DNA from: Methanoculleus methanifontis
Lineage (GTDB): Archaea; Halobacteriota; Methanomicrobia; Methanomicrobiales; Methanoculleaceae
NCBI RefSeq assembly: GCF_030464365.1
Contig: NZ_VCYI01000016.1
Location: 1 to 61,819 of the forward strand
Length of the DNA: 61,819 bases
Reading direction: 5' to 3'
Part shown: piece by piece, positions 11,646-21,300 of the stretch
Layout: the number at the start of each line of letters is the position of its first letter
Numbering within the stretch: the first letter of the stretch is position 1
The notes under the pieces: model-generated
What the model saw: only the letters and a program-made list of their open reading frames with translations
The model's database searches: none
Told to the model about the DNA's origin: nothing
Translations under genes and position numbers: made by a program

Positions 11646-12863
11646 ATGAGAACGCGAGTATATCCCCTCGATCCAATGGTCCCTCGCAGTATCGTCAACG
11701 GCATCCGATCGCTGGCCTATGATGCAGGCACCCTTCTTTTTTCAGCGGTATCACTGCTCGTGCCGAAAGATGAGCATAAAATCCTGTTCTTCTCGGTGCC
11801 CGATTACTCCGACAACGCAAAGTACGTCTACGACAAAATGCTCGAATCCGGCCTCGATAGAACCCATCAGTTGATCTGGTGCGTCTACTCACCCATCAAT
11901 GCAAACCACGTCATCCGCCGCTCACGTGAATACCTCTACCATGCGCTGACGGCAAAGTACATCATCAGCACCCACGGCACACCAGCCTGGAAGTCCAGAA
12001 ACCAGGTAAGCATCGAACTATGGCACGGCCTCCCGCTGAAGACGATCGGGTACTTTGCCGATACCGACTTTCCGAACGCCGCCGCGAGACTCTCTGCAAC
12101 ATGGAGGCTGCGGAGGTTTGCGAACTCCGTGGACTATCTTATCACACCCTCAGAACTCGAGCGGCTGATCTTCTCTTCCGCTTTCCTGATCGATCCCGGT
12201 AAGGTTCTGGTCCTTGGACAACCCCGGTGCGATGCTCTTTACAGGCCCAGAGCTGCCGGGATAAACGTACTATGCCGTATCCTCGGCCGGGACGGCACTT
12301 CTGAAAAGAGGCTTCTACTGTATCTTCCCACCTTCCGGGAATATGATACCGGTGCGAGCCGTAAAATCCTCGAAGAGATCCTCGCAAGCGAGAAGTTTCG
12401 CCGGTTCGTGAAGGACGAGAATCTGCTTTTTGTCTGCAAACCGCACTCTCACGACGAGAATCTCTTCCAAGCGTATAACGGAGAGCATATCCACATACTC
12501 TTAAACGATGACCTGCGGAAATCAGGTGATACCATCTACGACTTCCTGAACGCCGTCGATATCCTGATCACCGACTACTCGTCGGTGTACTTCGACTTTC
12601 TTCACCTGAACCGACCGATCGTCTTCCACGTGCCCGATATTGGGGAGTACCGGGATCAAAGAGGATTTATTCTCGAACCGTTTCGCGACTGGGCACCGGG
12701 AGAGGTCTCCACCAATGTCGATGAACTGATAGAAGCGCTTACGAATGCCCTCGCCGGCCCGGACAGATGGGAACCGGAGAGGATCAGGCTACGACGGTTA
12801 TTGTTCAGGTACACCGACGAACTCGCATCTGAAAGAGTCTGCAGACTGATCGAGCAGCGTTAA
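11646..12863 (+). CDS. CDP-glycerol:poly(glycerophosphate) glycerophosphotransferase family protein (TagF/TagB-like)
   Basis: A 405-residue protein of the teichoic-acid polymerase family. Diagnostic motifs are ELWHGLPLKTIGYF at 125-137 and TDYSSVYFDFLHLNRPIVF at 309-327 followed by DIGEYRDQRGF, which in TagF/TagB bind the CDP-glycerol donor. Length matches the catalytic GT-B domain without extra modules. In bacteria this family transfers sn-glycerol-3-phosphate units, and relatives use ribitol or sugar phosphates. Here it is followed by a nucleotidyltransferase and a GpsA-type dehydrogenase that could supply the donor. Membrane association through an N-terminal basic/hydrophobic helix (about 14-40) is plausible. 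The exact polyol is inferred from neighbours. Confidence 0.9.
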   Translation: MRTRVYPLDPMVPRSIVNGIRSLAYDAGTLLFSAVSLLVPKDEHKILFFSVPDYSDNAKYVYDKMLESGLDRTHQLIWCVYSPINANHVIRRSREYLYHALTAKYIISTHGTPAWKSRNQVSIELWHGLPLKTIGYFADTDFPNAAARLSATWRLRRFANSVDYLITPSELERLIFSSAFLIDPGKVLVLGQPRCDALYRPRAAGINVLCRILGRDGTSEKRLLLYLPTFREYDTGASRKILEEILASEKFRRFVKDENLLFVCKPHSHDENLFQAYNGEHIHILLNDDLRKSGDTIYDFLNAVDILITDYSSVYFDFLHLNRPIVFHVPDIGEYRDQRGFILEPFRDWAPGEVSTNVDELIEALTNALAGPDRWEPERIRLRRLLFRYTDELASERVCRLIEQR

Positions 12864-13213
12864 TCAGATCTGGTTGGAGATGTCGCAGAATCTTTCGGGT
12901 GGACCTACCAGGAGACTTTGAGCCTTTCAAGCACCCTCCGGGTCACGGCTTGCACCTCCCGGAAGTTATGCATTCGGCGGACGCATCTCCCCACATCGCT
13001 GCCAGAATAAAAGCATGCTCATTTCAGACCATGGTACAGTCCACACGGCAGAAATCCCGCATATGATCGCTTTGTACCAGGTGCGCCAAAGGCTTGCAGG
13101 CGGTTTTGGGGAGAACCTCAGCAACACGACCGGTTGATACGCACAGTTAATAACCAAATATTGTTATAATCTACAGGCGTATATCGCACGATAAATAAGA
13201 GCGGTGTTTCACT
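12864..13213. other. Intergenic stretch with possible gene remnant
   Basis: About 350 bases between the glycerophosphotransferase and the nucleotidyltransferase. On the minus strand near 12904-12975 a short frame reads like a protein C-terminus (REVQAVTRRVLERLKVSW, then stop), which may be the tail of a lost glycosyltransferase. The last 80 bases are AT-rich and hold the TATA-like promoter described separately. Nothing intact is encoded. Confidence 0.35.
13164..13170 (+). promoter_or_regulatory. TATA-like box A for the nucleotidyltransferase/GpsA pair
   Basis: TTATAAT, preceded by A-rich bases, lies about 45 nt upstream of the TTG start at 13214. That distance allows transcription to begin near 13195 and leaves room for the GGTG ribosome binding site at 13203-13206. 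The surrounding AT-rich tract contrasts with the GC-rich coding DNA. The call rests on position and composition only. Confidence 0.35.
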
Positions 13214-13960
13214 TTGATCGGCGTAATCCTGGCAGCGGGATGTGGACGAAGATTGGGCAGAGACATCGATCTCGAGAAGATCGGCCCGAAATGCCTGCTT
13301 ACAATCGACAATTGCACGCTGCTGGAACGAATAGTCTCGGATCTGGTGTCTTCTGATGTAGACGCGGTCACCATCGTCATCGGGTACAAGGCGGATATGG
13401 TACGGAAAGCCTGCACGACACTGGAGAGAACCTATGGCGTTCGGCTCAATCTGGTTCGTAACGGTGACTACCTCTCGACGAACACAGCCTATTCCCTCAA
13501 TATCGGGCTATCTGGCATACATGACGATGTTGTCATCTTTAACGGCGACGTGCTGTACGATCGTGCCATCCTGGACAATTTATTGAAGATAGATCAGACC
13601 GCGATTGTGGTTGACAATACAAAGCCGCTCACGGAAGAATCGTTTAAAGTGAAGATAGTAAACGGCCGGATCGAAGAGATGGGAAAAACCGTCCCGATAG
13701 TAAACGCGACAGGGGAGTTCATCGGTATCTCGAAGATCGCCGGCAGGGATATCGGCGAAGCGAAACGGTTGCTGAATGCCCTGGTTTCGGGGGATCCGAA
13801 TAACTACTACGACTTCATCTACCAGTCCCTGTCAGAGAGCGGGAACCTTGCATACTCGTTCACGAACGGACTGAAATGGACGGAGATCGACGATATCCGG
13901 GACCTCAGGTATGCCGAGAGCATCGCGGGCATAGCCGCCGGTGCACGGGGGCGGTTTTGA
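13214..13960 (+). CDS. Sugar/polyol-phosphate nucleotidyltransferase (MobA/LicC-like fold)
   Basis: A 248-residue NTP transferase. The signature LAAGCGRRLG is at 6-15, the activating Lys is in GPKCLL (24-29) and the metal-binding Asp is in FNGDVLYD (109-116). The ending ATGEFIGISKIAG resembles LicC-type cytidylyltransferases and the archaeal inositol-phosphate cytidylyltransferase domain rather than TagD, which has a different fold. Start is TTG at 13214 with GGTG 7 nt upstream. Its stop overlaps the next start as TGATG, so it is coupled to the GpsA-type gene. I infer that it makes a CDP-activated donor, perhaps CDP-glycerol, for the upstream transferase. The base specificity cannot be read from sequence. 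Confidence 0.85.
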   Translation: MIGVILAAGCGRRLGRDIDLEKIGPKCLLTIDNCTLLERIVSDLVSSDVDAVTIVIGYKADMVRKACTTLERTYGVRLNLVRNGDYLSTNTAYSLNIGLSGIHDDVVIFNGDVLYDRAILDNLLKIDQTAIVVDNTKPLTEESFKVKIVNGRIEEMGKTVPIVNATGEFIGISKIAGRDIGEAKRLLNALVSGDPNNYYDFIYQSLSESGNLAYSFTNGLKWTEIDDIRDLRYAESIAGIAAGARGRF

Positions 13961-14937
13961 TGATATCGAAAGTTGGGGTCATCGGTGCCGGAAGCATGGG
14001 TACCGCCATTGCGCAGAGCATCTCCCGGAGGGCCGGAGAGGTTATCGTGTTCGGGAGGAGACAGGCGGTTGTCGATTCGATTAACCGTGACAACTGTAAT
14101 TCGCGTTATTTCCCGGGTCTGCGCTTGAACCCCAATATCCGTGCGAGACTAATGGGCGACAGATTGGATGTCGTGGACTGTGCGGCCGTGGTCATCGCTG
14201 TCCCCTCAAGTGAAGTTCGGTCTATCGTTAGCGCTGCGCACGAAGATCTTGCAGGCAAGTTCCTCGTCACGGTAGCCAAAGGACTGGAGTACCCGTCGCT
14301 CAAAACGATGAGTGAAATTATCCGCGATGAGACGGGCAACCCGAATATGGCCTGCTTCTCAGGGCCGACCTTCGCCGATGAGATTGCCTACGGTCATATC
14401 GCCGGCGCTACGATAGGTGCCGGCGGGGATCCATCGCTGAGAGCAACGATCTCGGATCTCTTCGGGGAATTCATCCTGGATTTTTCGGACGATATCAGAG
14501 CGGTCGAGTTATGCGGCGTGCTGAAGAACGTATACGCCATCGGAACGGGGATGTGGGATTCGGTTTACAGCAACCATAACGAGCACTACACCTTCCTGAA
14601 CATGTGCTACAAGGAGATGTGCACCTTTTTACGGGCTATTTCTCTTGATGAAGGGATATTCACAAAATTCTGCTGCTTTGGGGATTTCAACCTGACCGCC
14701 AACGTGGATAAAAGCCGCAACCGGACACTGGGGCTGATGGTCGGCAAAAAGATCGTAAAAACCCCCTATTTAGAGTCCGGCGTGACGTTCGAGGGGTCCA
14801 GATCGGTCAAAGGGATCATCGAACTGGCCGAGAACCATGACATCGACATGCCCATCGCACGGTTCGTCTACGACGTCCTGAGCGGGAATAATAACGTGCG
14901 GGAATCGGTCGATGGGCTCATCAGGAAAGCGCCCTGA
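13960..14937 (+). CDS. gpsA: NAD(P)-dependent glycerol-3-phosphate dehydrogenase (GpsA-like)
   Basis: A 325-residue member of the GpsA family, which interconverts dihydroxyacetone phosphate and sn-glycerol-3-phosphate. Motifs: NAD site VIGAGSMGTAIA (7-18), SGPTFADEI (134-142), ELCGVLKNVYAIGTG (183-197) with catalytic Lys189, and FGDFNLTANVDKSRN (240-254), matching the family GDLxLTC..SRN segment. The start at 13960 is fixed by the TGATG overlap. Archaeal membrane lipids use sn-glycerol-1-phosphate made by an unrelated enzyme, so this gene most likely serves the surface polymer made by the upstream glycerophosphotransferase. The segment that normally reads NxKAAL is altered (NHNEHYTFLN), so a related ketose-phosphate substrate is possible. 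Confidence 0.87.
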   Translation: MISKVGVIGAGSMGTAIAQSISRRAGEVIVFGRRQAVVDSINRDNCNSRYFPGLRLNPNIRARLMGDRLDVVDCAAVVIAVPSSEVRSIVSAAHEDLAGKFLVTVAKGLEYPSLKTMSEIIRDETGNPNMACFSGPTFADEIAYGHIAGATIGAGGDPSLRATISDLFGEFILDFSDDIRAVELCGVLKNVYAIGTGMWDSVYSNHNEHYTFLNMCYKEMCTFLRAISLDEGIFTKFCCFGDFNLTANVDKSRNRTLGLMVGKKIVKTPYLESGVTFEGSRSVKGIIELAENHDIDMPIARFVYDVLSGNNNVRESVDGLIRKAP

Positions 14938-21101: not shown

Positions 21102-21300
21102 TGAATAATGCTACTATACGTTGACGCCACTCTATACATTAGCACCGCTCCGCCATGACGTATCGCAGTTCTCGTTCCGGAGACACGTCCACCCTGCTGG
21201 ATCATAGCCATCTCCTTTCCTCTCCGGTTCAAAAGCAATAAGGCTTCTCACAGGCAAACCCTTGCCTGTGTCCCGCCCCTCCGGGTATCTTGCCCGTGTC

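Follow-up and report, generated by a model that had tools for sequence, protein, structure and literature searches.

A probable CDP-glycerol module for surface glycans in methanogens, with a candidate LicC-fold glycerol-phosphate cytidylyltransferase

Archaeal lipids are built on sn-glycerol-1-phosphate, and sn-glycerol-3-phosphate is the bacterial isomer, a separation known as the lipid divide; what use, then, would a methanogen have for a glycerol-3-phosphate dehydrogenase of the GpsA type that sits among glycan genes? The question is raised by a 61,819-nucleotide stretch of Methanoculleus methanifontis (contig NZ_VCYI01000016.1, positions 1 to 61,819; the window), part of a 2.6 Mb genome of the order Methanomicrobiales. 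In this window, three adjacent rightward genes (the cassette, Table 1) encode a TagF-family transferase, a nucleotidyltransferase of the LicC/MobA type, and a GpsA-type dehydrogenase, as a sequence-only reading had proposed and as the open reading frames and searches of Pfam and NCBIfam bore out. The motifs it had named are all present: WHGLPLK and TDYSSVYFDF in the transferase, LKNVYAIGTG (with K189) and NHNEHY in the dehydrogenase, and the overlap TGATG, by which the last two genes have one base in common. We propose that the cassette is probably a dedicated cytidine diphosphate (CDP)-glycerol module for surface glycans; what the sequences show is the fold, the family membership, the catalytic residues, the gene linkage, and the swapping of partners, and from these we infer the substrates, stereochemistry, acceptor, and export. 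In the proposed route, the GpsA-type enzyme would reduce dihydroxyacetone phosphate (DHAP) to sn-glycerol-3-phosphate, the enantiomer absent from archaeal lipids; the LicC/IPCT-fold enzyme would join this product with cytidine triphosphate (CTP) to give CDP-glycerol and pyrophosphate, the role played by TagD in bacteria; and the TagF-family enzyme would use CDP-glycerol as donor to add glycerol phosphate to a lipid-linked glycan, probably as one or a few units and not as a long polymer. The neighboring glycosyltransferases would build this acceptor, and its export would fall to a Wzx-type flippase, a likeness seen by inspection in the protein encoded at 21262.

The dehydrogenase carries both domains of its family (NAD_Gly3P_dh_N, PF01210, E 3.8e-32; NAD_Gly3P_dh_C, PF07479, E 3.5e-31) and is a divergent member, its best NCBIfam subfamily model (NF000942) scoring 211 bits against a GpsA cut-off of 257. 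Numbering from M1 at base 13960, residues K107, K189, D242, T246, and R253 are invariant in all 41 members of its clade and N254 is present in 40, with one gap; the same six are nearly invariant in the sampled bacterial GpsA set. We take them to be the DHAP-binding and catalytic set, as they correspond to the lysines, Asp, Thr, Arg, and Asn with which the human and Leishmania glycerol-3-phosphate dehydrogenases (GPDH) bind or reduce DHAP, and with these residues and both domains the enzyme belongs to GpsA. Its AlphaFold model (predicted local distance difference test, pLDDT, 91.5) gave as top matches GpsA 3k96 and the Leishmania GPDH complex with DHAP and NAD, 1n1e. In a quick tree, whose long outgroup branches leave the deeper rooting unsure, the cassette GpsA clade was monophyletic, with a Shimodaira-Hasegawa-like approximate likelihood ratio (SH-aLRT) of 99, and stood apart from the sampled bacterial housekeeping and Archaeoglobi GpsA, which led us to reject a bacterial contaminant or a recent bacterial transfer as its source; a viral origin was also rejected, as tblastn found no relative in IMG/VR. 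The cassette enzyme is the only PF07479 protein of its own genome, where no glycerol kinase was found and where the iron-dependent alcohol dehydrogenase family that includes glycerol-1-phosphate dehydrogenase is represented. Eight other genomes with the cassette were compared: a single PF07479 protein occurs in six of the archaea and two clade members in the seventh, and in the bacterium the cassette copy is accompanied by a housekeeping one.

The evidence that these genes work together comes from their distribution. Of 199 genomes of the order, 15 have GpsA and 23 have a TagF-family gene. The genomes with GpsA also carry close orthologues of the nucleotidyltransferase (a more distant one in genome G160), the nucleotidyltransferase directly adjoins GpsA on every contig that extends far enough, and the TagF orthologue is adjacent to the pair in most genomes. 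Of the 138 matches in a wider scan with a GpsA profile, run on one genome per species, the best 80 were kept, which makes the absolute counts lower bounds. Outside the order, the clade turned up in many Methanobrevibacter, in one archaeon each of the Methanobacteriaceae and the Baldrarchaeota (Asgard), in a bog archaeon, and in a single bacterium, of the Gastranaerophilales, so that it is almost exclusively archaeal. The nucleotidyltransferase gene lies on the same strand within 141 bp of GpsA at 33 of the 41 clade loci, three of the others ending at contig edges, and a TagF-family gene lies within 9 kb at 27 of the 41, against neither neighbor at any of the 39 bacterial GpsA loci of the same scan. 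The association of GpsA with the nucleotidyltransferase far exceeds chance, and the recurrence of the trio in other archaea, which the sequence-only reading had thought worth looking for, is thereby established. The order is nucleotidyltransferase-GpsA in Methanoculleus, the bog archaeon, and Baldrarchaeota, and GpsA-nucleotidyltransferase-TagF in Methanobrevibacter, so that the link goes beyond shared synteny. Identities to the window's proteins are about 41-43% (nucleotidyltransferase) and 34-39% (GpsA) in Methanobrevibacter, and 33% and 47%, respectively, in the bog archaeon; with the differing gene orders, this indicates that the parts have been reshuffled and yet remain together.

The case for the LicC-type enzyme as a stand-in for TagD rests most strongly on a partner swap. 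In four Methanobrevibacter loci (L155:6718-8022, L156, L158:5021-6334, and L166:3626-4939), a protein of 433-437 amino acids directly follows the clade GpsA in the place of the LicC-type enzyme and joins an N-terminal TagD-type domain to a Gfo/Idh/MocA oxidoreductase. The best PDB match of this domain in L158 was the Bacillus subtilis glycerol-3-phosphate cytidylyltransferase (1coz, 1.2e-32), and the fusions scored 110-113 bits with their best NCBIfam model, TIGR01518, under its cut-off of 165. The suggestion that the middle gene is a non-homologous replacement of TagD is thus supported by the exact exchange of one for the other. Large LicD-family proteins follow the TagD-type fusion in some of these four loci.

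The nucleotidyltransferase itself matched the MobA-like NTP_transf_3 (PF12804, E 1.8e-11) and also PF00483. Its best PDB matches in a profile search were PntC, LicC, and the inositol-1-phosphate cytidylyltransferase IPCT, which were also the top Foldseek matches of its AlphaFold model (pLDDT 93.4; template modeling score by query about 0.7-0.84), and all three use CTP, on a phospho-alcohol or a phosphonate. Residues L6, A8, G9, G11, R13, L14, P25, and K26 and the metal-binding Asp positions D112 and D226 are invariant in 22 of 22 members, so that the nucleotidyltransferase fold, the signature loop (GxGxRL...PK), and the two metal Asp place the enzyme with LicC, the PntC nucleotidyltransferase domain, and IPCT; the fold of TagD-type enzymes (HxGH ... 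RTxGISTT, PF01467) was not found in it. Identity to these relatives is only about 20%, and the GpsA partner implies a different phospho-alcohol for the cassette enzyme.

Relatives of the nucleotidyltransferase were observed in other settings. Six Archaeoglobi-like genomes (G219, G242, G327, G236, G354, and G339; loci L220-L225) each have a stand-alone member of its family of about 245 amino acids, scoring 189-204 bits with the family profile and adjoining, in opposite orientation, a gene of about 170-210 amino acids resembling CDP-alcohol phosphatidyltransferases (PF01066 confirmed in L220 and L221); these are candidates for the glycerol-phosphate cytidylyltransferase activity of Archaeoglobus fulgidus that is without an assigned gene. 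Other Methanomicrobiales pair a related nucleotidyltransferase with a short-chain dehydrogenase/reductase (SDR) gene (L091:9454-10880, L094:8828-11525, and L100:9149-10335), a version resembling the Bcs1/TarIJ CDP-polyol cassettes; the first two of these loci have a Pfam-confirmed SDR and an adjoining TagF gene. Nucleotidyltransferases 61% identical to each other lie near TagF genes and without GpsA at L092:8567-13463 and L093:8325-10676, and by inspection one at L098:9971-11755 is fused to an aminotransferase-like domain in the manner of PntC-AEPT.

The transferase belongs to the TagF family, scoring 259 bits with Glyphos_transf (PF04464, E 7e-77) against a curated cut-off of 22.1 and keeping H127 (WHG), H267 (KPH), and D310, S312, and S313 (TDYSS), as do all 23 of the 23 related cassette TagFs; the His pair and the TDYSS residues are presumably catalytic, as in TagF. 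Its best PDB match, Staphylococcus epidermidis TagF (3l7i, E 6e-25), covers only the C-terminal, catalytic domain, and its best NCBIfam model, TarF, gave 104 bits, far under the cut-off of 550. At 405 amino acids, the window transferase has neither the N-terminal membrane-targeting domain nor the second glycosyltransferase domain of a polymerase architecture, and its match to TagF is limited to the catalytic half, which favors one addition or a short chain over a long polymer. Of the glycan module that the sequence-only reading had suggested, the glycerol-3-phosphate source, the non-TagD cytidylyltransferase, and the TagF-family transferase stand, being conserved together, whereas a single-domain transferase gives no support to the teichoic-acid-like polymer. 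Methanobrevibacter loci carry additional TagF-family fusions of 730-1160 amino acids, and there a polymer is plausible.

Two TagF-family genes were noted apart from the cassettes. One in the genome of M. methanifontis (G000:C7:74431-76000; L019:17812-19381), 26% identical to the window's, directly follows a truncated copy of the phosphonate-locus cytidylyltransferase domain in what appears to be a broken phosphonate/CDP-alcohol locus. The other, in another family of the order (L096:2844-4016; G115:C20), is an orthologue that shares about 82% identity with the TagF of the window and has one internal stop codon, on a 5.5-kb contig without the GpsA pair, possibly a decayed transfer.

Several observations weigh against a plain glycerol-3-phosphate module. 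At L138:3583-5085, in a methanogen, and L140:7478-8986, in the Gastranaerophilales bacterium, the nucleotidyltransferase beside the clade GpsA is fused to a HAD-IIA phosphatase, which would be superfluous in a simple route from GpsA to a glycerol-3-phosphate cytidylyltransferase (GCT); the nucleotidyltransferase domains of the two fusions are 54% identical, and in genome G160 (L033/L138) it is such a HAD-IIA-fused protein, 30% identical, that replaces the usual enzyme. The HAD-IIA (NagD/PGP-type) family includes glycerol-3-phosphate and phosphoglycolate phosphatases, and the fusion could point to glycerol-2-phosphate, to proof-reading, or to another substrate. At L211, a divergent sister GpsA has as neighbors LicD genes and a ribitol-5-phosphate cytidylyltransferase of the TarI/IspD type (NF001183, 285 bits, cut-off 166), which makes ribitol a possible substrate in that sub-branch. 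Three Methanomicrobiales loci (G080, G008, and G022) have a different TagF nearby, about 38% identical. Finally, the nucleotidyltransferase family is broad, relatives of 27-43% identity adjoining SDRs, CDP-alcohol phosphatidyltransferases, or aminotransferases, so that family membership cannot by itself fix the substrate, which is assigned mostly from the GpsA partner.

The fusions and the L211 pair favor an alternative in which the same three steps act on another polyol phosphate (glycerol-2-phosphate, ribitol-5-phosphate, or a short polyol) and the GpsA-type enzyme on a related ketose phosphate, which we regard as unlikely but as deserving some weight. A model for the glycerol-2-phosphate variant is reportedly provided by the pneumococcal CDP-2-glycerol route. 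Clade-specific pocket residues also speak for it, Y210 being present in 39 of 41 members (bacteria mostly have A) and EYPSL at 110-114 in all 41, and the activation of polyol phosphates by MobA/IspD-fold enzymes is established, TarI and Bcs1 being generally known to do so for ribitol phosphate, so that its earlier presentation as new was overstated. MobA-fold enzymes that activate sugar or polyol phosphates with CTP are already described, as for CDP-6-glucitol (PMC10918830). The NHNEHY segment (205-210), earlier taken as a hint of a different polyol, was rejected as a sign of a new substrate: it is a variant of one sub-branch, the Methanobrevibacter enzymes with the same partners have the near-canonical N-A-R-Y, and the presumed DHAP ligands are conserved. 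Against another polyol stand the invariance of all six of the presumed DHAP-binding and catalytic residues, the TagD-type partner of the same GpsA clade in four loci, and the use of SDR or medium-chain (MDR) dehydrogenases in the known ribitol routes, SDR versions of the cassette existing separately (L091 and L094).

Considerably less probable is that the nucleotidyltransferase activates a phosphonate or phospho-amine, such as 2-aminoethylphosphonate or phosphocholine, for transfer by the TagF-like enzyme, with GpsA incidental or supplying something else. Its nearest folds do include PntC, which acts on aminoethylphosphonate, and LicC, which acts on phosphocholine, and by inspection the genome has a phosphonate locus (G000:C15, L126) with a 435-amino-acid fusion of cytidylyltransferase and phosphoenolpyruvate mutase, a phosphonopyruvate decarboxylase-like gene, and a LicD gene; that locus, however, is on another contig with a cytidylyltransferase domain of its own, and the GpsA partner is kept across lineages whose nucleotidyltransferases share only about 30% identity. 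We give equally little credence to the proposal that the nucleotidyltransferase uses native sn-glycerol-1-phosphate, so that the surface would bear that isomer and GpsA would serve redox balance or glycerol metabolism. In its favor, a glycerol-phosphate cytidylyltransferase activity in A. fulgidus lysate prefers sn-glycerol-1-phosphate and has no gene assigned to it (PMC8262930, citing Rodrigues 2017), members of the cassette's nucleotidyltransferase family occur in Archaeoglobi-like genomes, and TagD-type enzymes can take both enantiomers (PMC8262930), but if the native isomer were enough, a tightly co-occurring GpsA that is the only one of its genome would be pointless. That GpsA supports mixed-stereochemistry lipids and lies in a glycan locus by accident is scarcely credible, for although it is the bacterial source of glycerol-3-phosphate for lipids and is sporadic in archaea (PMC6431249), the nucleotidyltransferase and TagF adjoin it in unrelated archaea, its neighbors in the window are glycan genes, and bacterial-type lipid synthesis in archaea has been judged unlikely given patchy acyltransferases (PMC6431249).

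The proposed CDP-glycerol module resembles the poly(glycerol phosphate) wall teichoic acid pathway of Bacillus (GpsA, TagD, and TagB/TagF) in leading from DHAP through glycerol-3-phosphate and CDP-glycerol to a TagF-family transferase with the same catalytic His and TDYSS motifs, but it has a LicC-fold enzyme where Bacillus has TagD with its HxGH fold, its GpsA forms a cassette-specific archaeal clade and is not a lipid enzyme, and its transferase lacks the TagF N-terminal domain. With the CDP-ribitol systems TarI-TarJ-TarL/TarK and Haemophilus Bcs1-Bcs3, it shares a MobA/IspD-type cytidylyltransferase that adjoins a polyol-phosphate dehydrogenase and feeds a TagF-family transferase; its dehydrogenase, however, is of GpsA and not MDR/SDR type, and its nucleotidyltransferase is LicC/IPCT-like and not IspD-like. 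The TagF-like capsule polymerases Cps3B/Cps3D and App3/7 likewise combine CDP-glycerol with a TagF-family transferase in a surface-polysaccharide locus, but the bacterial GCT there is TagD-type, as are most known glycerol-phosphate cytidylyltransferases, and the polymerases are multidomain (PMC8262930). Among methanogens, a TagF-family protein of Methanobrevibacter ruminantium, mru_1079, was already annotated under teichoic acid biosynthesis without a donor pathway (PMC5816558), for which GpsA with a LicC- or TagD-type enzyme is here proposed. We found no description of a module of GpsA, LicC-type enzyme, and TagF, or of a LicC-fold glycerol-phosphate cytidylyltransferase, in the open-access literature, an absence that is weak evidence because subscription papers mostly fall outside it.

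More broadly, we see an even chance that several unrelated archaea, alongside their sn-glycerol-1-phosphate lipids, have a pathway through sn-glycerol-3-phosphate and CDP-glycerol that is dedicated to surface glycans, that its LicC-fold glycerol-phosphate cytidylyltransferase is an unrecognized enzyme class interchangeable with TagD, and that the family may include the missing glycerophosphoinositol enzyme of A. fulgidus. If so, the sporadic gpsA genes of archaea, so far unexplained, would in cassette methanogens serve surface glycans and not lipids, a single cell would make both glycerol-phosphate isomers and keep them separate by enzyme specificity, and archaea would have a teichoic-acid-like chemistry. 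A candidate gene family would then exist for the archaeal glycerol-phosphate cytidylyltransferase activity, and the Methanobrevibacter of gut and rumen would be predicted to bear phosphoglycerol on their surface.

Table 1. Layout of the cassette in the window
Feature	Coordinates	Strand	Detail	Basis
TagF-family (CDP-glycerol) glycerophosphotransferase gene	11646..12863	+	405 aa, single catalytic domain	PF04464
Gap between transferase and nucleotidyltransferase genes	12864..13213	+	350 bp	sequence
LicC/IPCT-like cytidylyltransferase gene, proposed CTP:glycerol-3-phosphate cytidylyltransferase (GCT)	13214..13960	+	TTG start, 248 aa	PF12804/PF00483
GpsA-type NAD(P)H-dependent glycerol-3-phosphate dehydrogenase gene, cassette-specific archaeal clade	13960..14937	+	ATG at 13960	PF01210/PF07479

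The 350 bp between the TagF and nucleotidyltransferase genes confine the tight operon to the last two genes, and this downstream pair may have its own promoter. The flanking genes are glycan-related, comprising GT4 glycosyltransferases, a VimE-like deacetylase, WecB/WecC-like genes, and the Wzx-like protein (the last three by inspection), and ATP-grasp and PHP genes are also among the nearest annotated neighbors, with the GT4 glycosyltransferases and the deacetylase-like gene. No TagA/TagO/TagGH set was recognized among these nearest annotated neighbors, to which the family scan was confined within the window. Apart from the cassette, the glycan locus is conserved, though variable, and within it the cassette appears to be an exchangeable glycan-modification block.

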